DNA from: Halovenus sp.
GTDB taxonomy: Archaea; Halobacteriota; Halobacteria; Halobacteriales; Haloarculaceae
NCBI GenBank assembly: GCA_028275025.1
Contig: JAQCNM010000166.1
Location: forward strand, 1 to 32,282
Direction: 5' to 3'
Length of the DNA stretch: 32,282 nucleotides
Within the stretch, counting starts at the first letter, position 1. The number at the start of each line of letters is the position of its first letter. The notes beneath the pieces are model-generated. The model saw only the letters and a program-made list of their open reading frames with translations, had not been told where the DNA came from and ran no database searches. Below are positions 1 through 9,827 of the stretch, one piece after another. A program made the position numbers and the translations under genes.

Positions 1-1037
1 CCCGCACAGTACTCGACCGCACGGCCGCTCTCGAGGAGGCGACCGACGTCCGGTGTCTTTACCTGCACGAGGTCGGCCGCCCCGGCGTCGACAAACGCCT
101 CGACGTCGGCCCGGCTGTCACACCACTCGTCGGCGACGAGGTCGACCCCGACGCCGGCGTCGGCGAGACCGTCACGGAGTGTGGCCATCGCCGCGATCTG
201 GTCGGCCCGGCCGTCGGCGATTGTCGGCTCCTCGAGTTGGAGCGGGTAGGGGGCCGCCGCCCGCTCGAGTTCGCGGACGTACGCGGTCACGGCCGGGCGG
301 TCGTAGGGTGGTCCGAACAGCCGCTCGAACATCCCGTAGATGTCGACGTGAAACCGCGGCCGGTAGTCGGAGCTCCCGAGTTCGGTCGCGCGGTCGGACA
401 GCCAGGACAGATACTCGACGAGCCGTTCCCCGTCCGGTCCGACCGTCTCGAGACTGTTGAACAGCCCGTGGGGGAGCACCGCGACACGCTTGAGCAGCAT
501 CTTCTCGGCCGTGCGCCGCCGGTCGGCCCCGGACTGCCCGAACACCGGCACCGGGTCTGTCGCGGGCTCTGTCCCGAGCGTGTCTGCGAGCACGTGGGTC
601 TGTGTCGTCCGGCGAGCGGCAGCCGCGGCGGCGACCAGCGCCTGCGAGAGACCGTACTCGACCGCGCTGTGCACGTCTGCCTCTCCGAGAACCGCGCTGT
701 TGCGGGACAACGCCGTCGCCTCGCGCCCGACGAGTGCGTTCCCGAGCCGTGTCTCGACGGCCTCGACGTGGTCGGCGGCCCGAAAGAGCGGGTCCCGGTC
801 GCCCGCGGCGGCGTACTGCACCGCCGCACAGTCACCCCGGACGACGCGGCCATCACTCAGGCTCAACTCGACGAGCAACGACTCACCTGGCTCGCGGATG
901 CGGGCAAACCCCGGCGTCTCCGGGCTGTCGGCGTACGCGAACCCGTCGGACTCCGCCCCGGCGGTGATCGCCGCCTGGTCGTCGGCAAAGAACGCCGACA
1001 CACCCGGGGTCGCGGTGACACGTTCGATCCGGGTCAT
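1..1037 (-). CDS. mal: Methylaspartate ammonia-lyase, 3' end outside window
   Basis: This gene encodes an enolase-superfamily lyase that removes ammonia from (2S,3S)-3-methylaspartate to give mesaconate, a cytoplasmic step of the methylaspartate cycle (and of glutamate fermentation in clostridia). The 345 codons read without a stop from the ATG at 1037 to the window edge; the family is about 413 residues, so roughly 65 C-terminal residues are missing. Visible family signatures are GDCAAVQYAAAGDRDPLF in the N-terminal half, VLPHGLFN (the catalytic-histidine region), HVDIYG, ADEWC and VKTPDVG (the catalytic-lysine region), in the order known for the clostridial enzyme. The start codon shares one base with the glmE stop (TGATG), so it is co-translated with the mutase genes. 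The enzyme acts directly on the mutase product. Identification is strong; the truncation is only a window effect. Confidence 0.95.
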   Translation of the reverse strand, partial: MTRIERVTATPGVSAFFADDQAAITAGAESDGFAYADSPETPGFARIREPGESLLVELSLSDGRVVRGDCAAVQYAAAGDRDPLFRAADHVEAVETRLGNALVGREATALSRNSAVLGEADVHSAVEYGLSQALVAAAAAARRTTQTHVLADTLGTEPATDPVPVFGQSGADRRRTAEKMLLKRVAVLPHGLFNSLETVGPDGERLVEYLSWLSDRATELGSSDYRPRFHVDIYGMFERLFGPPYDRPAVTAYVRELERAAAPYPLQLEEPTIADGRADQIAAMATLRDGLADAGVGVDLVADEWCDSRADVEAFVDAGAADLVQVKTPDVGRLLESGRAVEYCA

Positions 1038-2473
1038 CAGTCGTCCCCCGGACGGCCGACCAGCCGTCCGTCACTGATCGCGGACACGTCGTCGGCGACC
1101 ATCCGGAACGACGGTCGCCGGTTCTCTGTCGTGGCACGTGTCTCGAGTCGGGCGTCGTGTATCTGCTTTACCTCGCTGTCGACCGCGAGGTTGCCGAACT
1201 TCAGTAGCCGGACCCGGCCGTCGTCGTCTCTCGCCGGCAGTACGTCGCCGTCGGCGGCTTCACTGGGTGGAAACGGCACGTCGAGCAGCCCCTGCTCGAA
1301 CGCCTCGACAGTGCCCCGGGCGACGTCACCGTCACCGGCGTCGAACACCGCGTCGAGCAGCGACCGCACGGACCGCTCGATGAGGTCCTGCTCCCGGTCG
1401 ACGCCTTCGAGGTCGACAGACTGCTCCGAGAGCATCTGCAGCACCTGACCGGTCGTCCGGAGGCCGGCGGCGTTCGCCGCCGCCGTCGGCACCCCGCGGG
1501 CCTCCTGTGGCGACTTCGTGATTATCTTGTCCGGTTCGACGACCGCGGCGGTGGCAGCCCCGAGTGCGATCACCCCGTTCGCGCGGGCCTCGTCCCGCGG
1601 GAACCCCCCCATCCACTGGTGGAAGACCGTCGTGACGGTCACCTCCTCGGGGAGGTACTCGGTGCCGAGTTGCTCCATCGCCCGGATCGCGGCCACGTCC
1701 TGCACGAGGTTACCGACCTGTCCGTAGCCGAGTGTGACACTGCGCACGCCCTGGGTGGCCGCCAGCAGCCCCTCGATGATGCAGATCGCGATCGCCACCG
1801 ACGGCGGGACGAGCGTCCCGGTGAGCGGCCCGAACGGCTCGCGGTTGATCGGGACCCCGCGCTCGGTGTAGGCGCCGCTGAGGCGGTCGACGTACTGCCA
1901 GTACTCGATTGTCTCCGCCAGCTCGTACTTGCTCGTGTACGGCAGGTTGTACGTTATCGGGCCGCCCTCGAAGCTCTGGAACCCGCCGGCGAGTGTGACC
2001 GCCGCGAGGAGACGGGCGTCGGGTGTCCCGTGACGGACCTGCACCGGCGCGTCCACCGCCTCGATCAGCCGACGACAGCCGTCGACACCGTGGTTCACCG
2101 CCGGAAAGCCGTTGAGCTCGTTCTCGCCGGTCTCGCGGGACTGTTCGAGGCCTGCCTGTGCCTTCTCGTAGGCGTTGTCGCGGGTGTAGGAGTCGATTGT
2201 CGTCGGTAGCAGGTCCGCGTCCCCCTCGTCGGTGAGTGTCTGGAGCAGGTCGATCTGGTCGTCGAGCCGAGGGACACCCGCCCGTGGCTGGGTCAGAACG
2301 CGGTCGGCCGACTCTAGCACGTCCGCGAACCGCTTGTGTTCCGGGAGACCCTCGTGAAAGGCCACCGCCTCCTCGAAGCTGGCAGACTCCACGGGCGCAG
2401 ACTCCCAGACTGTCTGATCGAGCTGTTCGAGCTCCGCGTCGGTGAGCCGGGTATCCTCGACCATCGGTCTCAC
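1037..2473 (-). CDS. glmE: Glutamate mutase (methylaspartate mutase) subunit E
   Basis: This is the large catalytic subunit of coenzyme B12-dependent glutamate mutase, which rearranges L-glutamate to threo-3-methylaspartate; it is also called mutE or mamB. The protein is 478 residues (clostridial GlmE is about 483). Recognisable blocks are LNGFPAVNHGV, VRHGTPDARLL and EGGPITYNLPY (substrate-binding arginine, glutamate and tyrosine regions), then SGAYTERGVPINREPFGPL and VFHQWMGGFP. The GTG at 2473 forms a GTGA overlap with the glmS stop; an in-frame ATG at 2464 (protein starting MVEDTRLTD) is an equally reasonable start, and neither has a clear Shine-Dalgarno sequence. It lies between glmS and mal, matching the known haloarchaeal cluster order. 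The family assignment is secure and the start is uncertain by three codons. Confidence 0.94.
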   Translation of the reverse strand: MRPMVEDTRLTDAELEQLDQTVWESAPVESASFEEAVAFHEGLPEHKRFADVLESADRVLTQPRAGVPRLDDQIDLLQTLTDEGDADLLPTTIDSYTRDNAYEKAQAGLEQSRETGENELNGFPAVNHGVDGCRRLIEAVDAPVQVRHGTPDARLLAAVTLAGGFQSFEGGPITYNLPYTSKYELAETIEYWQYVDRLSGAYTERGVPINREPFGPLTGTLVPPSVAIAICIIEGLLAATQGVRSVTLGYGQVGNLVQDVAAIRAMEQLGTEYLPEEVTVTTVFHQWMGGFPRDEARANGVIALGAATAAVVEPDKIITKSPQEARGVPTAAANAAGLRTTGQVLQMLSEQSVDLEGVDREQDLIERSVRSLLDAVFDAGDGDVARGTVEAFEQGLLDVPFPPSEAADGDVLPARDDDGRVRLLKFGNLAVDSEVKQIHDARLETRATTENRRPSFRMVADDVSAISDGRLVGRPGDD

Positions 2474-2913
2474 GAGCGGGCCTGTGTGAGCCGGGTGGAA
2501 CGTTCGTCCATCCCGAGTTCGGCACGGAGTGTCGAGACGACCTCCTCGAACTCCACGTCGGCGTCGAACACGCCGTCGAAACCCATCTCTCGGAACTGCC
2601 GCCGGACCGTCTCGAACTCACTCTGTCCGACCGCGAGGTTCCCGCCGATGTAGGTCATCGGGTCGACATCCGCCTCGGCGAGCCCCTCGTGGAGCCCCTC
2701 ACAGTCCTGTTCGGCGTGGCCGTACAGCGAGGACACCAGAACGGCACTCGCGCCGGTCTCGGCCGCCGCCTCGACGAACGCCTCCTTTGGCGTCTGTGCA
2801 CCGAGGTTCCGGACGTCGAACCCGGCCTCCTTCAGCGCGTGTTCGAGCAGGGTGATCCCGACAACGTGTGCGTCCGATCCGATCGTACCGACGACGACGG
2901 AAGGCTCAGACAT
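2470..2913 (-). CDS. glmS: Glutamate mutase subunit S (B12-binding)
   Basis: This is the small cobalamin-binding subunit of glutamate mutase (mutS or mamA; unrelated to DNA mismatch repair MutS or glucosamine synthase). The 147-residue protein shows the B12-binding signature DAHVVG (DxHxxG, whose histidine ligates cobalt) near residue 14, followed by SSLYGH and YIGGNLAVG, which complete the Rossmann-like fold. The ATG at 2913 is chosen because the protein then begins MSEPSVVVGTIGSDAH, like the roughly 137-residue family; an upstream in-frame start at 2973 would add 20 unrelated residues and lies upstream of the likely promoter. It is the first gene of a glmS-glmE-mal operon, with a TATA-like element about 35 bases upstream, so the leader should be only about 10 bases. 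Confidence 0.95.
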   Translation of the reverse strand: MSEPSVVVGTIGSDAHVVGITLLEHALKEAGFDVRNLGAQTPKEAFVEAAAETGASAVLVSSLYGHAEQDCEGLHEGLAEADVDPMTYIGGNLAVGQSEFETVRRQFREMGFDGVFDADVEFEEVVSTLRAELGMDERSTRLTQARS

Positions 2914-2943
2914 CGGTTCAGTTACTCCTCTCTCTCCTGTGGG

Positions 2944-2953
2944 TAATAAAAAT
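2944..2953 (-). promoter_or_regulatory. TATA box of the glmS-glmE-mal operon
   Basis: Read on the minus strand, this is ATTTTTATTA, the most AT-rich stretch in the spacer. It is centred about 35 bases before the glmS ATG. An archaeal start site about 26 bases downstream would fall near 2922, giving a leader of roughly 9 bases. Confidence 0.6.
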
Positions 2954-2967
2954 GTCGAAGCTCGAAT

Positions 2968-3044
2968 CGACATCTGTCGTAATCAGGGGACGAGAGCCGT
3001 TGTCCGTCGACGGGGTTGTGACATCGTGAGACATCGACAGATGT
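2968..3044. promoter_or_regulatory. Paired inverted repeats upstream of glmS promoter
   Basis: The sequence CGACATCTGTCG at 2968-2979 is itself an imperfect dyad and lies about 15 bases upstream of the glmS TATA box. Its 10-base half ACATCTGTCG recurs as the exact inverse CGACAGATGT at 3035-3044, inside a second small dyad ACATC-GACA-GATGT at 3031-3044. The position and symmetry suggest an operator for a dimeric regulator. This is inference, since short dyads arise by chance. Confidence 0.35.
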
Positions 3045-3136
3045 GCGTAGCACAGCATCCTTCATAAATGTTCATGATGTACTCTGGGGTCGGCACTGCC
3101 GTCGCTGACCCGAACTGAGCGGGGAGTCGGCGTCAC

Positions 3137-3523
3137 TCAGGTGTCGTACTCCATCTCCCGCAGGGTAATAACGTCGTTGCCGACCACGAGCGTACCCGAG
3201 AGTCGCTCCTCGAGCAGGAGCGACTGCGTGAGCGGGTCGATCCGCGCCTTTCCGGTCGAGGTCCGCTCGGAGATACCGATACAGACGCAACTGGCCGCAC
3301 GGTCGACGACAAACTCGACGGTCGACGGGATGTCCGGTAGACAACGGGTGGTGAAGTCGACACCGTAGTTCCGGGTCGGACCGACCGCCTCGACGAGCGG
3401 GTCGAGGCTGTCGACAGTGGGGAGTCGGACGAGGTGGACCGTCGCGTGGTCCGGAACGACCGAGCGGAGCGCCTCCCTGACCGACTCCGCTTGTTGTGCC
3501 GACCTGACGACGATTACGCTCAT
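3137..3523 (-). CDS. Small UspA-like protein
   Basis: This 128-residue protein most resembles the universal stress protein family. The N-terminus MSVIVVRSA is a plausible first beta strand. The C-terminal segment GISERTSTGKARIDPLTQSL followed by LLEERLSGTLVVG has the layout of the haloarchaeal UspA nucleotide-binding end (G-x-S/T-x-R-S/T-x-T-G-K...QS-LL). It is shorter than the usual 140-150 residues, and the glycine spacing is not canonical, so nucleotide binding is doubtful. The start codon overlaps the stop of the upstream Bat-type regulator (ATGA), so the two are translationally coupled, which suggests that it may modulate that regulator. The 223-base spacer downstream separates it from glmS. 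Confidence 0.6.
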   Translation of the reverse strand: MSVIVVRSAQQAESVREALRSVVPDHATVHLVRLPTVDSLDPLVEAVGPTRNYGVDFTTRCLPDIPSTVEFVVDRAASCVCIGISERTSTGKARIDPLTQSLLLEERLSGTLVVGNDVITLREMEYDT

Positions 3524-4200
3524 CCGTACGCCCCGAACAGAAGCGTACAGAAGTTGTGCTGGACACGGCGGAGACGCTCGCTCAGGGTCGACCGACTTAT
3601 GCCCAGTTCACCCGCTATCTCCTCCGCGGTCGCCTCCTGTGGCACCTGGAAGAACCCCATCTGGTAGGCCGTCTCCAGCACGGACAGTTGCTGTTCGGAG
3701 AGTTTACCCGAGACGCTCTGTCGGACCTTGTCGGTGCCGAGGGGGAACCCCGGCCGGTCGGTCTGGGTCGTTCCGACGAGTTTCAGTGACCCGTGCACCT
3801 CCTCGACGGCACCGGCGACCTGCTTCAGGTGCTGCCAGTCACGGACCGAGGTCACCACCTCGAGGTGTGCGTTCCGGCCGACGATCCGGTGTGGGACGGC
3901 CCGGTTCTCGGTCAGCAGTGACAGCACAGTGAGACTCGACCGGTCGGCGACGACACTCACGTGGTAGGTGTGGTGGCTCACACCGGTCCGGGAGACGTAC
4001 ACGATATCGGCATCCGGCAGGTCCGCGGAGAGTTGCTCCTCGGAGACACTCGACCCGGAACAGACCGTCAGAAAGAGGAGTTCGTCGCTGTCGGGAACCG
4101 GAAAGGCATTGTCGACTTCGATGCTCTCGATGTTCTCCCCGGTCTCGAGTAACTGCAACGGGATACCCGACAGCCCGATCTGGAACTCGACTCTTAGCAT
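3520..4200 (-). CDS. Bat-type HTH_10 transcriptional regulator
   Basis: This 226-residue cytoplasmic protein has a variable N-terminal sensor-like half and a C-terminal HTH_10 domain (about residues 165-222). The domain begins at LSEQQLSVLETAYQMGFFQV and continues with ATAEEIAGELGISRSTLSERLRR, the hallmark of haloarchaeal Bat-like regulators. No PAS, GAF or membrane segment was recognised. The ATG at 4200 (MLRVEFQIGLSG) is preferred over a longer reading frame that runs back through the tandem repeats, because a good TATA box lies about 35 bases upstream. It sits between the acetone carboxylase genes and the glutamate mutase genes, the expected place for a local regulator of one or both. Its ligand and direction of action are unknown. 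Confidence 0.85.
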   Translation of the reverse strand: MLRVEFQIGLSGIPLQLLETGENIESIEVDNAFPVPDSDELLFLTVCSGSSVSEEQLSADLPDADIVYVSRTGVSHHTYHVSVVADRSSLTVLSLLTENRAVPHRIVGRNAHLEVVTSVRDWQHLKQVAGAVEEVHGSLKLVGTTQTDRPGFPLGTDKVRQSVSGKLSEQQLSVLETAYQMGFFQVPQEATAEEIAGELGISRSTLSERLRRVQHNFCTLLFGAYG

Positions 4201-4231
4201 GTCAGAGTTTGTCACGCGTATGTCGAGGGTG

Positions 4232-4239
4232 AATATACA
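4232..4239 (-). promoter_or_regulatory. TATA box of the HTH_10 regulator gene
   Basis: On the minus strand this reads TGTATATT, centred about 35 bases before the ATG at 4200. It implies a leader of about 9 bases and supports that start. The 31-base tandem repeats begin about 75 bases further upstream. Confidence 0.6.
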
Positions 4240-4314
4240 ACTTTCCCCGGGGTATAGCCCGCCGGGACGGCCCACTACCAGCACCACCGGCAGCCACGGG
4301 AGACAGGTCTGTTC

Positions 4315-4415
4315 GGGTTCGGTCGAGACGACACTCGGTCTCGCCGGGTTCGGTCGGGACGACACTCGGTCTCGCCGGGTTCGGTCGGGACGACACTCGG
4401 TCTCGCCGGGTTCGG
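4315..4415. repeat. Three 31-bp tandem direct repeats plus partial fourth
   Basis: Full copies occupy 4315-4345, 4346-4376 and 4377-4407, each starting GGGTTCGGTCG and ending ACTCGGTCTCGCC. A partial copy, GGGTTCGG, lies at 4408-4415. Copies 2 and 3 are identical and copy 1 differs at one base. The array lies in the noncoding spacer between the acetone carboxylase gamma gene (stop at 4454) and the HTH_10 regulator promoter. The 31-base period is close to three helical turns, so equivalent positions would face the same side of the DNA. An operator array or a simple minisatellite are both possible. Confidence 0.85.
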
Positions 4416-4453
4416 GGCCGACAACCTCCGCCTGCCACCGCCGGGGGAGACGC

Positions 4454-4966
4454 TCAGGCCGACTGCTCCGGCGCCGGAATCGGTTCGTCGATCCACTCGT
4501 TGTAGAACGTCTCGATATCGGGTTCGAACTCGTGGATGAGCGGGTAGCCGGGCATCACGTTCGTCACCTCAAGCAGTGTCTGACAGCCCGGACAGAAAAA
4601 CTCCCGGAGCTCCATGAACTCGGGGTGGGGATGCATGTTCTCCGGGTAGATCTCGAGATACTCCTCCTCGGTGTCACGGACGTTGATCAGCGCGTCGGCC
4701 TTCCAGTTCTGGTCGTGTTCACAGAACTCGTGGCCACACTCGCACTTTATAATCCACTCGTCTTCTGACCTGGCGACAACGTAGAGATGGTCGGCGTAGG
4801 GGATGATTATCGGGTCGTCCCAGTCGACACGCTCCTGCAGGACACTGCGGACCGTCTGGAAGCGGTCTGCGTCCTTGTAGTCGCTCATCATGTCGCGGAG
4901 CTGGTTCCAGTCTAAGTTGTCGTCGACCAGGTCCTCGATGTGTTCACGTGGGTATGATTGTGGCAT
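4454..4966 (-). CDS. acxC: Acetone carboxylase gamma subunit
   Basis: This 170-residue protein matches the small subunit of acetone carboxylase (about 20 kDa), the structural zinc-type subunit of the alpha2-beta2-gamma2 enzyme that converts acetone, bicarbonate and ATP to acetoacetate. It has an acidic N-terminal helical region and then a metal-site pattern: C75-x-C77-x4-C82 (in KCECGHEFC) paired with C125-x2-C128 (in FFCPGCQ). Between and after these are the family-like segments YLEIYPENMHPHPEFMELRE and PGYPLIHEFEPD. The start is well supported by GAGGTGA six bases before the ATG. It follows the large subunit by 16 bases. This subunit is the main reason for calling the operon acetone carboxylase and not a hydantoinase or oxoprolinase, which lack it. 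Confidence 0.88.
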   Translation of the reverse strand: MPQSYPREHIEDLVDDNLDWNQLRDMMSDYKDADRFQTVRSVLQERVDWDDPIIIPYADHLYVVARSEDEWIIKCECGHEFCEHDQNWKADALINVRDTEEEYLEIYPENMHPHPEFMELREFFCPGCQTLLEVTNVMPGYPLIHEFEPDIETFYNEWIDEPIPAPEQSA

Positions 4967-4982
4967 CGGTGTTCACCTCGTG

Positions 4983-7502
4983 TCAGTCGTCGTCTGTTGC
5001 TCGCTTCGGGGTCGCCTCGCCAAACGAGGCGCTCGGGCCCGAGAGGTCGGTTATCGACCGGTCGGCGCTCCAGGTGTAGGGCACCGCGGGCTCGTCGTCG
5101 CGGCCGACGTTCCACCAGGTCTCGTGGCCCTCTGTCGGGTTGTTCCACTTGCGTTTGAGCCCCGTCGCAAAGCGGTTCTCGAGTGACGTCTCGGCCTTCT
5201 CGCTGAGGTCGAACCCGAACTCCGCGGGCAGGTCCCAGAACTCGCGGTAGAACTCGGCGAACTGCCGGCTCATCCGCATACTGCTCTCGTAGGTCTTCTT
5301 GACGTCGTCGATGAGGTCCCGCTCGTTCAGGATGCGGTCGCGCTCGTCTTCCATCCACTCGGTGACGGGCTGGGCGTTCTCGACGCGCTGCTCGCGGCGC
5401 TGCTCGCGGAGCTCCCGGGTTGCCTCCCGGTCGAGTTCCCACTCGCCCTGGACCGCAGAGTTGTGCTTCGGGCCGTCGTCGACCTTCTCGACGACAACGG
5501 CGTACGCCTGCTTCGCGTGACGCGGGAGCACGTAGCCGTCGTGGATGTCCGAGAGCACGTCCTCGGGGGCCCGCTCCATCGGGTCGCCCAGACCGGAGCC
5601 GCCACGGAGGTAGTTCAGGTAGAGGTCGTAGTCGTCGAACTGTTTGGGGGTGCTGATACCCTCCGGTCGACGGGTTATCTCCCCGTCTATCTTCGACTCG
5701 AACTCGCCGCTCTCCGGGTCGAGGTCGTGTTGTGGGTACTCCTCCCCGTTCTCGAACCGCTCCTCGAGGTCGGTGTCCTGGGCGTTGAGGATGTAGCCTG
5801 AGGCCGCCGGGTAGCCGCCGAACAGACCGCCGTCGCTGGTCATGTACCCGTTACCCATCTCGTAGAGCAACCACCTGCTGACGTCTTTGACCGTCCGCAG
5901 CGACTCGAACCCGGCACCACCGGCCCGTCTGCCGGCGCCGCCGGTGTTTGGTTTGACCGCCCGACCGAGAAACGGCAGTGGTTCGGTCATCTCCCAGACC
6001 TCCGCGTCGCCCATGTCACCCTCGGGGTTCCAGATGGCCGCCGCGTGGGGCTCACCGTCGGCGACGTAGCGGGCACCGACACCCTCACACGCCGACTCGA
6101 AGGAGTTGACAGCGTGGAGTTTGCCGAACTGGTCGATGCCGCCGCCCTGTAACCAGTTCGAGGTGTTCGCGTTGCCCGCGTTTATCTCCTCCCAGAACCC
6201 GCGTGCGTAGTAGCCACGCGAGAGGTGCTGCCAGAGCGGTGCCCAGGCCGACACCAGAAAGTGCCAGGCGTAGGCGTGGGCCGTCTCCGTGTTCTGCGTG
6301 TTCGCCCACGACCCCTCGGGCAGGTGGAAGTCACAGCTGTAGTACGCACCGTCGTTGACGTTCGCGTTGGGGATGACCGTCTGGGTGAGCATCACCCAGA
6401 TGCCGCCCTGGATGGCGGCCGGCGTGCAGTTGTAGGGGTGCCAGCCCCACTTGTTCGCACCCTCGAAGGACACCTGGAACGAACCGTCCTCTCGAACGTG
6501 CAGCTCTGAGGGTGCGTGCATGATGTGGTTCTCGTCTGCGTACGTCCGGGTGAGGTTATCCTGGCCCTCGTACAGCGCGTCGACGAACGAGGCCCCGCGG
6601 TAGGTGCCCGGGAGCATCGTCTTCTCGATGCGGTTGCGGAACCCGCGGCGACCGTCCTCGACTGCCTCGCGTGACAGCTGTTTGAACGTCTCGACACCGT
6701 ACTCGTCGATCATCTCGTTGACCGCGTCGCGGATCATCAGACAGCCGGTCATCCGGGTCCGCTCGTCGAGTTTCAGAAAGTCCGGCGTCCGCGTCTTGTC
6801 GGGGTAGTCGTTCTGCCAGGAGTTGAAAAGCTCCAGGTCCTCGCCGATCTTCCGGGCGGTGTAGTACGCCCCGTCACCGAACCGCGAGGACTGGGAGACG
6901 TTCATACTCCCCGGTCCCACGGCACCGGTGTCGATGACGTGGTTGACACCGCCGGCCCACGCGACAATCTCCCCGTCGTTGAAGATTGGTATCAGTGTCA
7001 TGATGTCGCAGGCGTGCACGTCGCCCACGTCCACGTCGTTGTTGACGAAGATGTCCCCGGGCTCGATACCGGGGCTCTCCTCGTAGTCGTGGTTTATCAT
7101 GTACTTTATCGCCTCGCTCATCGTGTGGATGTGGACGATGATACCCGTCGAGACGGCGATAGAGTCACCCTCCGGCGTGAACAGCCCATAACAGAGCTCC
7201 CCCTCTTGTTCGACGATAGGTGTGGCGGCAACCTCCTTTGAGGTTTCGCGCGCGTTCACCAGGTCGCCCCGGAGCTGAGAGAACATCTGCTCGTACTTTA
7301 TCGGTTCCTCTTTCTTTAGTTCGAGTTCCTCCAGACCGGCGTAGTGGTCGGTTCGTTCGGTCTGCTCCTCGAGGGTTTCGAACTGCTCGCGGAGCGTCTG
7401 CCCGTCCCAACCGATGCCGTCACTGCGCTCCTGTTTTCTGTGCACCTTTTGTTTCTCGCGTCGCATTCGAGGAAACTGCTCCTCGGATTCGTGTTTACTC
7501 AT
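4983..7502 (-). CDS. acxB: Acetone carboxylase alpha subunit (HyuB-like)
   Basis: This 839-residue protein belongs to the hydantoinase B / oxoprolinase family and fits the acetone carboxylase alpha subunit (about 776 residues in Xanthobacter), the Mn-containing subunit thought to carboxylate an activated acetone enolate. The sequence shows DIFVNNDVDVGDVHACD, with H163 and D166, and H188 in GGVNHVID; the 3- and 22-residue spacings equal those of the H150/D153/H175 manganese ligands I recall for the bacterial enzyme. Further family blocks are TGAVGPGSMN, RTMLPGTYRG-like text (TMLPGTYRGASF), NCTPAAIQGGIWV and GGAGRRAGGAGFESLR. There is no Shine-Dalgarno sequence at the ATG (7502), and a structured 156-base spacer separates it from acxA. 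A roughly 60-residue charged N-terminus accounts for part of the extra length. Acetophenone or related ketone carboxylation cannot be excluded. Confidence 0.88.
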   Translation of the reverse strand: MSKHESEEQFPRMRREKQKVHRKQERSDGIGWDGQTLREQFETLEEQTERTDHYAGLEELELKKEEPIKYEQMFSQLRGDLVNARETSKEVAATPIVEQEGELCYGLFTPEGDSIAVSTGIIVHIHTMSEAIKYMINHDYEESPGIEPGDIFVNNDVDVGDVHACDIMTLIPIFNDGEIVAWAGGVNHVIDTGAVGPGSMNVSQSSRFGDGAYYTARKIGEDLELFNSWQNDYPDKTRTPDFLKLDERTRMTGCLMIRDAVNEMIDEYGVETFKQLSREAVEDGRRGFRNRIEKTMLPGTYRGASFVDALYEGQDNLTRTYADENHIMHAPSELHVREDGSFQVSFEGANKWGWHPYNCTPAAIQGGIWVMLTQTVIPNANVNDGAYYSCDFHLPEGSWANTQNTETAHAYAWHFLVSAWAPLWQHLSRGYYARGFWEEINAGNANTSNWLQGGGIDQFGKLHAVNSFESACEGVGARYVADGEPHAAAIWNPEGDMGDAEVWEMTEPLPFLGRAVKPNTGGAGRRAGGAGFESLRTVKDVSRWLLYEMGNGYMTSDGGLFGGYPAASGYILNAQDTDLEERFENGEEYPQHDLDPESGEFESKIDGEITRRPEGISTPKQFDDYDLYLNYLRGGSGLGDPMERAPEDVLSDIHDGYVLPRHAKQAYAVVVEKVDDGPKHNSAVQGEWELDREATRELREQRREQRVENAQPVTEWMEDERDRILNERDLIDDVKKTYESSMRMSRQFAEFYREFWDLPAEFGFDLSEKAETSLENRFATGLKRKWNNPTEGHETWWNVGRDDEPAVPYTWSADRSITDLSGPSASFGEATPKRATDDD

Positions 7503-7658
7503 AGCTGTTTAGTTCGTGGGGTGCATCTGCTCTGAGCCAGATGCGGGCTCGTGCAGTGCACACACCTCGACGGCAACTCCGCGGTCATCGTCCCCGAGGT
7601 CGTCGGAGGTGAGTGCATTTCTACACGGTGTGTGTAGGGTGTTCATACGGTCGGTGTG
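7503..7658. other. Intercistronic spacer with three inverted repeats
   Basis: This 156-base gap between acxA and acxB holds no credible gene. It contains GCATCTG/CAGATGC (7523-7529 with 7538-7544, 8-base loop), GTGCA-G-TGCAC (7551-7561) and CTACAC/GTGTAG (7621-7626 with 7632-7637, 5-base loop). In the acx mRNA these could fold into small hairpins. No TATA box is obvious just upstream of acxB, so the spacer is more likely an mRNA processing or stability region than a promoter. That function is inferred only. Confidence 0.5.
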
Positions 7659-9827
7659 TCAGTCTGTCTGTGACAGGTGGTGGACGCGGTGCTCGTCGAG
7701 CCTGGTCTCGTACCCCGGCGGGAGCACGAACGTCGTTGCGGCACCTTCGAGCACGGCCGGCCCGGTGAGTTCGTTGCCCGGTTGGAGCGCGTGCAGGTCG
7801 AGAATATCCGTATCGAGCCACTCCCCGTCCCAGTAGGACTCACGGGGCTGCTTGTAGGCACTCTCCGGCGGGTCGGGGCCGACCGGGGTCTCGGTCGGAA
7901 TCTCCGGTTTGACCACGTCGTGGACACCCCGAACAGACGCCTGCGTGACGGTGTGACCCAGTTCGGGCGACCGGGCCTCCTCGGAGTACTGCCGACGGTA
8001 GGCGTCCTCGAACGTGTCGAGCAGCTCTTCGAGCGTCTCTGGGCTGTCGGCCCGACTGACCGGCGACTCGATGTCGAGTGCGTTGAGCTGTCCTTGATAC
8101 TGGCCGAGGATGTTGTACTGGAACTCGATCTCCTCGCGCCCGACGTTGCTGTTGGTGAACTCGTCTCTCACCTTCTCCTCGAGTCGTGTCCAGATCTCGG
8201 TCAACTGCTCGCCGGCCGTCGACGCCGCCTCCGCTCTGGAGACGTCGGCGTCGATATCGATGTTCGTGGTCTGGTCGTAGCGGTACTCGAAGTCGGCGGC
8301 CCCACAGCCAAACGCGGAAAACGCCGCGGCCCACTCCGGGATGAGCACCTCGTCGAACCCGAGACCGCTCGTGTACCCGGCCGTGTGAACCGGACCACCG
8401 CCGCCGTAGGAGACACACTTGAAGTTCGACGGGGCGTACCCCTCGCCGGTCACGACCGATTCGAGGTCGTTCCGGAGCTTGTTCTCGAGGATGTCGACGA
8501 CGCCCTGTGCCGCCTCGTAGACACCCATCCCGAGCGGCTCGGCGACCTGCTCGCGGATCTCCGCCTCCGCGACGTTTCGGTCGATGGGCATGTCACCGCC
8601 GAGGAAGTTCTCGGGGTCGATCCAGCCCAGCGCGACGTGGCAGTCGGTGACTGTCACCGTCTCGACGTCGGTCTCGACGGCACTGACACCGACCTGGTCG
8701 CCGGCGCTCTCGGGACCGAGCTCTATCTTGTCGAACGTCGGGTTGACCCGGACGTAGCTCCCGGTTCCCGCCCCGACACTCTCCATGTTCACCATCGGCA
8801 ACGACAGCAACAGGCGGGCCATCTCCGGGTTGTAGTTGATGTCCCAGTCGTTGTCGATGATGATACCCATATCGAAGCTGGTCCCGCCGATGTCGGTACA
8901 GACGAGGTTCTCGTAGCCGAGCTCGTTGCCGAAGTAGTTCGCCCCGATCATCCCGCCGATCGGCCCGGAGACCAGTGTTCGTGCGAGCTCGTTCGCGTGG
9001 ATGTCGACCGTGCCACCGTGGCTGGCCATCACCCGCACACCGACGTCACCGCCGTTCTGGTCGACGGCCTCCTGAACGTTCGTCAGCTGCTTGCGCGAGG
9101 GCTCCGCGGCGAACGCCTCGGCAGCCAGCGTGTTCAGCCGGGGGAGCTCCTTCAGGGTCGGGTAGTACTCGCTCGAGAGCATCACCGTCGTGTCGGCGTC
9201 GCGCTCTGCGATGCGCTCCTCGGCGATTGCTCTCGCCCGCTGTTCGTGCTCCGCGTTCTGGTAGGCGTGCAGGAACATCACCGCGATGTGGTCTACACCC
9301 CGGTCGAGGAGCTCGTCGACCGACTCCCGGACGTCCGACTCGTAGATCGGAACCAACTCGTTTCCCTTTACATCGACACGCTCGCGCACGCCTCGAATCT
9401 GGTCGCGTGGGATCAGCGGCTCGGGGTGTCTGTGGGTGTTGACGTGTAGTCGGTCCGAGTACGAGAACCCGGTGTACGACTGGCGGCCCCGACCCATCCG
9501 GAGGGTGTCCTCCATCCCGCCGGTGATGAGGATACCCACGTCGACCTCGCTCTCGCGTTCCACCAACCGATTGAGCATCGCCGTTCCGGAGTACACTGTC
9601 GAGACGAGGTCCGGGAACCCGTCCTCGACGTCGAGCCTCCAGTCCTCCAAGGCGTCCTGTGAGGAGTTGAGAAAGCCACGTGACTCGTCGTCGGGTGTCG
9701 TCTTCGCCTTGCCGACGGTGAACTTTCCGTCTCGGTCGATGAGAAACGTGTCGGTCATCGTGCCGCCGGCGTCGATCGACAGTATCTCTGCGCTGTGGTC
9801 TGTCGGGTCTTGTTCCGAGCTCGCCAT
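7659..9827 (-). CDS. acxA: Acetone carboxylase beta subunit (HyuA-like ATPase)
   Basis: This 722-residue protein belongs to the hydantoinase A / oxoprolinase family, with the ASKHA-type nucleotide fold. It fits the acetone carboxylase beta subunit, which uses ATP to phosphorylate the substrates. The phosphate-1 motif IDAGGTMTD lies at about residues 18-26, followed by SGTAMLNRL and LITGGMEDTLRMGR. The phosphate-2 region is SGPIGGMIGA and VCTDIGGTSFDMG (about 287-321). Later blocks are YGGGGPVHTAGY and PEWAAAFSAFGCGAADF. The ATG at 9827 is preferred to two in-frame GTG codons at 9830 and 9833 because it gives the family-like MASSEQ start; no Shine-Dalgarno sequence is visible and it may be leaderless. 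It is first in the acxA-acxB-acxC order, the same order as in acetone-using bacteria. Confidence 0.88.
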   Translation of the reverse strand: MASSEQDPTDHSAEILSIDAGGTMTDTFLIDRDGKFTVGKAKTTPDDESRGFLNSSQDALEDWRLDVEDGFPDLVSTVYSGTAMLNRLVERESEVDVGILITGGMEDTLRMGRGRQSYTGFSYSDRLHVNTHRHPEPLIPRDQIRGVRERVDVKGNELVPIYESDVRESVDELLDRGVDHIAVMFLHAYQNAEHEQRARAIAEERIAERDADTTVMLSSEYYPTLKELPRLNTLAAEAFAAEPSRKQLTNVQEAVDQNGGDVGVRVMASHGGTVDIHANELARTLVSGPIGGMIGANYFGNELGYENLVCTDIGGTSFDMGIIIDNDWDINYNPEMARLLLSLPMVNMESVGAGTGSYVRVNPTFDKIELGPESAGDQVGVSAVETDVETVTVTDCHVALGWIDPENFLGGDMPIDRNVAEAEIREQVAEPLGMGVYEAAQGVVDILENKLRNDLESVVTGEGYAPSNFKCVSYGGGGPVHTAGYTSGLGFDEVLIPEWAAAFSAFGCGAADFEYRYDQTTNIDIDADVSRAEAASTAGEQLTEIWTRLEEKVRDEFTNSNVGREEIEFQYNILGQYQGQLNALDIESPVSRADSPETLEELLDTFEDAYRRQYSEEARSPELGHTVTQASVRGVHDVVKPEIPTETPVGPDPPESAYKQPRESYWDGEWLDTDILDLHALQPGNELTGPAVLEGAATTFVLPPGYETRLDEHRVHHLSQTD

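Follow-up and report, generated by a model that had tools for sequence, protein, structure and literature searches.

A predicted acetone carboxylase operon beside a minor-type glutamate mutase cluster in a haloarchaeal genome

The characterized acetone carboxylases are bacterial, as far as found, and none is tied to haloarchaea in the open-license PMC papers searched. No assay of a haloarchaeal enzyme and no report of acetone carboxylase or growth on acetone in haloarchaea was found in these papers, with reports beyond them possible, and the haloarchaeal acx genes seem to be undescribed there. The Mn(II) ligands of the Xanthobacter enzyme are H150, D153, and H175, with E89 as the switch residue (PMC12250083). 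The methylaspartate-cycle clusters examined here show the gene order mct, glmS, glmE, mal, mch, and mcl, in which Mct is succinyl-CoA:mesaconate CoA-transferase, Mch mesaconyl-CoA hydratase, and Mcl beta-methylmalyl-CoA lyase. The Mct and Mch enzymes of Haloarcula hispanica are encoded by hah_1336 and hah_1340, respectively (PMC5592240).

The window, the whole stretch of 32,282 nucleotides that was analyzed, is the entire contig C99 of a Halovenus MAG (G000; 2.03 Mb, 190 contigs, 78.6% complete). Its open frames give the minus-strand order acxA, acxB, acxC, Bat-type regulator, small protein, glmS, glmE, and mal, which bears out the sequence-only reading that the acx genes lie on the same strand as, and upstream of, glmS-glmE-mal. 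The features, with their predicted products and the evidence for each, are as follows.

7659..9827, minus strand: acxA, acetone carboxylase beta subunit with the nucleotide site, HyuA-like, 722 aa (phmmer against PDB, tree)
4983..7502, minus strand: acxB (B1 clade), acetone carboxylase alpha subunit with the Mn site, 839 aa (5m45_A match, ligand alignment, trees)
4454..4966, minus strand: acxC, acetone carboxylase gamma subunit, 170 aa (PF08882, 147 bits; 5svb_C match)
4314..4415, strand not applicable: 31-bp repeat, 3.3 copies, 98% matching, in the acxC-Bat intergenic region (TRF score 197)
3520..4200, minus strand: Bat-type HTH_10 regulator, 226 aa (PF04967; conserved beside acx in other haloarchaea)
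3137..3523, minus strand: small conserved protein, 128 aa, overlapping the Bat gene (cluster of 13 members in acx loci)
2470..2913, minus strand: glmS, glutamate mutase (methylaspartate mutase) S subunit (NF002612, 184 bits, cut-off 110)
1037..2464, minus strand: glmE, glutamate mutase E subunit of a minor haloarchaeal clade (TIGR01503, 718 bits, cut-off 390; tree)
3..1037, minus strand: mal, methylaspartate ammonia-lyase of the minor clade, 345 aa, incomplete, its open frame running into the contig end (tree)

Past acxA, profile searches find a PAS sensor protein, a DUF2062 protein, and a metallophosphatase, and the far side carries an S10/spc ribosomal-protein operon from 13258 on the plus strand, as read from translations. 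A chimeric join in the contig is possible; the order acxC-Bat-small protein is inherited. Taken as a whole, the locus is quite probably a haloarchaeal acetone carboxylase and an unrelated glm cluster of a minor type that have become neighbors by chance.

All three subunits, including the gamma subunit, are present in the window. In phmmer searches of PDB, AcxA scores 757 bits against the acetone carboxylase beta subunit of X. autotrophicus (5svb_B) and 361 bits against the gamma subunit of acetophenone carboxylase. AcxB reaches 826 bits against the X. autotrophicus alpha subunit (5m45_A) and 128 bits against the acetophenone carboxylase delta subunit, and AcxC reaches 172 bits against 5svb_C and 31 bits against the acetophenone carboxylase beta subunit (PDB structures). 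For each subunit the acetone carboxylase match exceeds those to acetophenone carboxylase and the hydantoinases by more than 100 bits. In the trees of the A and B subunits, the haloarchaeal proteins form one clade beside the acetone carboxylases of Bacillota and Pseudomonadota. The residues E102, H163, D166, and H188 of the window AcxB align to E89, H150, D153, and H175 of the Xanthobacter enzyme, so that all four are kept, and the Mn ligand positions are almost invariant among 126 aligned sequences. As judged from this sequence evidence, AcxA, AcxB, and AcxC of the window are true acetone carboxylase orthologues. The complete acxABC set that had been read from the letters is thus confirmed by scores, trees, and Mn ligands, and the grouping with hydantoinase or oxoprolinase that would have spoken against it appears neither in the scores nor in the trees. 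Among the other identities tried, that of an acetophenone carboxylase was rejected, with the Apc NCBIfam models giving 390, 155, and 33 bits, far under their cut-offs of 1500, 1500, and 250 bits; the hydantoinase and oxoprolinase identities were ruled out on scores.

Drawn from its relatives, the window enzyme would convert acetone to acetoacetate. Its complex is most likely alpha2-beta2-gamma2. By analogy with the mechanism of the Xanthobacter enzyme, AcxA would phosphorylate bicarbonate and the ketone (acetone, perhaps butanone) at the expense of ATP, and the Mn(II) site of AcxB would join the phosphorylated ketone and bicarbonate to acetoacetate. An unlinked ligase or CoA-transferase would then activate acetoacetate, and a thiolase would split the activated form to acetyl-CoA, which would enter the glyoxylate cycle, whose genes are present in this genome. 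The Bat-type regulator and its small partner protein, which are inherited with the operon, probably control acx.

The sequence-only reading had placed a Bat-type regulator and a Usp-like gene between the two gene sets. The regulator stands, with an HTH_10 score of 60 bits, over the cut-off, and a BAT domain slightly under the cut-off; its start Met was set by comparison with relatives. The name Usp-like for the second gene is unsupported, since no Pfam match was found for the 128-aa protein. Both genes accompany acx in other haloarchaea; they therefore belong with acx and form no bridge to glm.

A survey of 392 Halobacteria genomes shows PF08882 in 38, 15 of which carry the type found in the window (type I, PF08882 score of at least 146 bits). 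Carriers of acx occur among Halovenus, Natrinema, Natronorubrum, Halococcus, Halorientalis, Salinibaculum, and Haloquadratum relatives, and the nearest named acx relative is a Halovenus MAG, at 96% for AcxB. The commonest type-I layout is acxA-acxB-acxC-CoA ligase-methylmalonyl-CoA-epimerase-like protein-Bat-small protein-AcxB2. By hand count, Bat and the small protein occur in at least 12 of the 15 type-I loci, AcxB2 in 11, and the ligase and the epimerase-like gene in 9; these counts leave out the neighbors in the low-GC Haloquadratum loci, which are poorly called by the codon-based gene finder. The epimerase-like protein scores 94 bits with the methylmalonyl-CoA epimerase model, for which the cut-off is 115. 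Several of the haloarchaeal acx copies lie on plasmids, some adjoining transposases. The second alpha subunit is located as follows.

L032:13791-16298, with equivalents in L033-L035, L037-L042, L044, L092, L093, L105, L110, and L117: AcxB2, full-length, closing most of the acx operons in haloarchaea

AcxB2 forms a single clade (support 100/99.9) with all Mn ligands intact, and its match to the bacterial alpha subunit (849 bits) is as good as that of AcxB1. Most haloarchaeal acx operons carry two alpha subunits, AcxB1 and AcxB2, per one beta and one gamma subunit. In Halorientalis regularis, AcxB2 (L040:13278-16096, also L106) is read as two overlapping frames, a frameshift or a sequencing error. 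In the MAG J07HX64 (L120:4464-11524), acxA is broken into two frames with about 1 kb between them and acxB is read as two overlapping frames, and this copy looks decayed or misassembled because both genes are split. A zinc-type alcohol dehydrogenase gene lies directly before acxA on a Halococcus dombrowskii plasmid (L093:5193-6245), which would suit a conversion of isopropanol to acetone. A second, remoter AcxABC type of the haloarchaea (L036, L047, L048, L049, and L050) shows 42 to 48% identity for A and B; its usual neighbors are CoA ligases and another Bat-type regulator.

Of the commonest type-I layout, acxABC, Bat, and the small protein are present in the window, and the CoA ligase, the epimerase-like gene, and AcxB2 are missing. 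In the remainder of the 78.6%-complete MAG, AcxB2 was not found, the only match being a 26%-identical hydantoinase B on contig C186; the search for the CoA ligase linked to acx likewise gave no orthologue elsewhere in the genome, with the best match at 31 to 34% identity. These contents bear on the main substrate, which could be a ketone other than acetone, such as butanone or a larger aliphatic ketone. Sequence does not fix the substrate, and haloarchaeal operons often add the second alpha subunit and the epimerase-like gene, the latter suiting propionyl-CoA from butanone; the window, however, lacks both genes, and its proteins are acetone carboxylase orthologues, far removed from acetophenone carboxylase, so that such a substrate is improbable here.

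The glmS-glmE-mal genes fall to a different type of cluster from the one first supposed. The glmS score lies above both curated cut-offs in the profile search. Among 146 genomes with GlmE, Mch is present in 142 and lacking in G000, G018, G260, and G174. The last three carry a second cluster type, which also occurs as a second copy in G052 and G373; here, glmS-glmE-mal are followed by a RipB/Ich-like hydratase and a class I CoA-transferase. The hydratase is nearest to RipB/Ich and the CoA-transferase to succinate/acetate CoA-transferases. The clusters of this type are located as follows.

L078:8844-14143: second glm cluster type
L079:5825-11069: second glm cluster type
L081:5907-11122: second glm cluster type
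L089:9042-14422: second glm cluster type
L090:207-5388: second glm cluster type

In the tree, the window GlmE groups with those of G018, G260, G174, and the second copy of G052 (support 100/99), and forcing it into the methylaspartate-cycle clade is rejected by the AU test (p-AU 3.7e-58). The window Mal lies in the minor clade too (100/99), and the window glmS shows 65 to 72% identity to the minor-type clusters versus 56 to 64% to the methylaspartate-cycle clusters. Gene content and tree mismatch in part, because the second copy of G373 sits nearer the methylaspartate-cycle clade in both the GlmE and the Mal trees. Contig C99 stops within mal, so that the genes after mal are out of view, and a search of the rest of the 78.6%-complete MAG gave no class I CoA-transferase of the kind in the second cluster type. 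The adjacent glmS-glmE-mal set is not the METHYLASPARTATE cycle set, i.e., that of the methylaspartate cycle. From the enzymes that the profiles name, the second cluster type may degrade glutamate via mesaconyl-CoA, and glutamate catabolism through this intermediate is its probable role. The genes glmS-glmE-mal alone should thus not be read as a methylaspartate cycle; Mct and Mch are needed to distinguish the cluster types.

The remaining genome points in the same direction. Mct, Mch, and Mcl were not found in this 78.6%-complete MAG; the NF041315 search, which detects Mcl at 170 to 191 bits in other genomes, gave AceB only. The malate synthase AceB scores 811.5 bits (cut-off 780). An isocitrate-lyase-family gene contains a KRCGH motif and shares 79% identity with the gene that immediately precedes aceB in a genus mate; it is assigned as isocitrate lyase by this context and scores under the curated model cut-offs. 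Both glyoxylate-cycle genes, isocitrate lyase (by context) and malate synthase, are thus found. With the MAG at 78.6% completeness and mal truncated where the contig ends, each absence call in this genome is weak when taken singly. Acetyl-CoA more likely passes through the glyoxylate cycle, because Mct, Mch, and Mcl were not found and the malate synthase and isocitrate-lyase genes are present.

It is unlikely, at much the same level as the other-ketone substrate, that the minor-clade cluster is itself a variant of the methylaspartate cycle with a replaced CoA-transferase and hydratase. The companion hydratase and CoA-transferase would provide steps analogous to those of Mct and Mch. Against this, searches of the genome G018, which belongs to this clade, gave a match for neither Mcl nor AceB, G000 and G174 have AceB, and Halobacterium salinarum, which is reported to have glm and mal but to lack mct and mch, is unable to grow on acetate (PMC5592240).

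The neighborhood of acx and glm was compared with that in other genomes. In the six other type-I acx genomes with GlmE, the two gene sets lie on different contigs or at least 208 kb apart (208 kb in G029 and 404 kb in G102), and GlmE is absent from eight type-I carriers. GlmE occurs in 7 of 15 acx genomes versus 139 of 377 others of the class Halobacteria, so that the two are not associated (p = 0.43; 0.78 without G000). Other flanks surround acx in J07HX64 and Halovenus LUM.78, its two nearest relatives, and the stretch examined there holds no glm gene; the LUM.78 stretch ends within acxB, which makes only its upstream side informative. Between the small protein and glmS in the window lie 223 bp, and inspection by eye shows a TATA-like TTTTTATTA in them, some 35 bp ahead of glmS. 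This element suggests an own promoter, and separate transcription of glm is therefore plausible. The closeness of acx and glm looks accidental, a coincidence of genome rearrangement.

A dedicated acetone island, in which acetone carboxylase feeds acetyl-CoA to a methylaspartate cycle next door, is accordingly very improbable: the two parts are adjacent on one strand, 223 bp apart, and can be linked via acetyl-CoA on paper (PMC5592240), but GlmE and Mal belong to the other clade, Mct, Mch, and Mcl were not found in a genome that has the glyoxylate genes, the TATA-like element points to an own promoter of glmS, and the neighborhood occurs in no other genome examined. The earlier view of the neighbors as methylaspartate-cycle genes, and with it that of a single acetone-assimilation island, is not supported by these results.

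Beyond the reading of two chance neighbors, a broader picture can be put forward tentatively, as one that may well not hold in all its parts. Haloarchaea would have their own acetone carboxylase lineage with an archaeal (Bat) control unit and mostly two alternative alpha subunits for different ketones, of which the window represents a reduced single-alpha form, and, separately, an undescribed pathway from glutamate to mesaconyl-CoA. With acx found in several haloarchaeal genera, ketone assimilation with CO2 fixation becomes a testable trait of hypersaline archaea.

Compared to known systems, the window operon resembles the acetone carboxylase of Xanthobacter autotrophicus (acxABC; PDB 5m45, 5svb, and 5svc) in its three subunits, the bacterial gene order, and the four Mn ligands. 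The gamma subunit has its cysteine motifs, and A and B show about 46 to 57% identity with bacterial members of the acetone carboxylase clade. In contrast to the Xanthobacter enzyme, the haloarchaeal acx proteins form a clade of their own with a longer AcxB C terminus, and the operons carry a Bat-type regulator, whereas the bacterial plasmid acx loci examined have a sigma-54-dependent regulator. The acetophenone carboxylase of Aromatoleum (PDB 5l9w) belongs to the same superfamily and has related subunits, with scores of 128, 361, and 31 bits for AcxB, AcxA, and AcxC compared to 826, 757, and 172 bits for acetone carboxylase. The Haloarcula methylaspartate cluster contains homologues of the window glmS, glmE, and mal, but the window genes fall outside its clade, and mct does not lie beside glmS. 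Compared to the glm-mal genes of Halobacterium salinarum, which occur without mct and mch (PMC5592240), the window has acx upstream, and its contig ends in mal.
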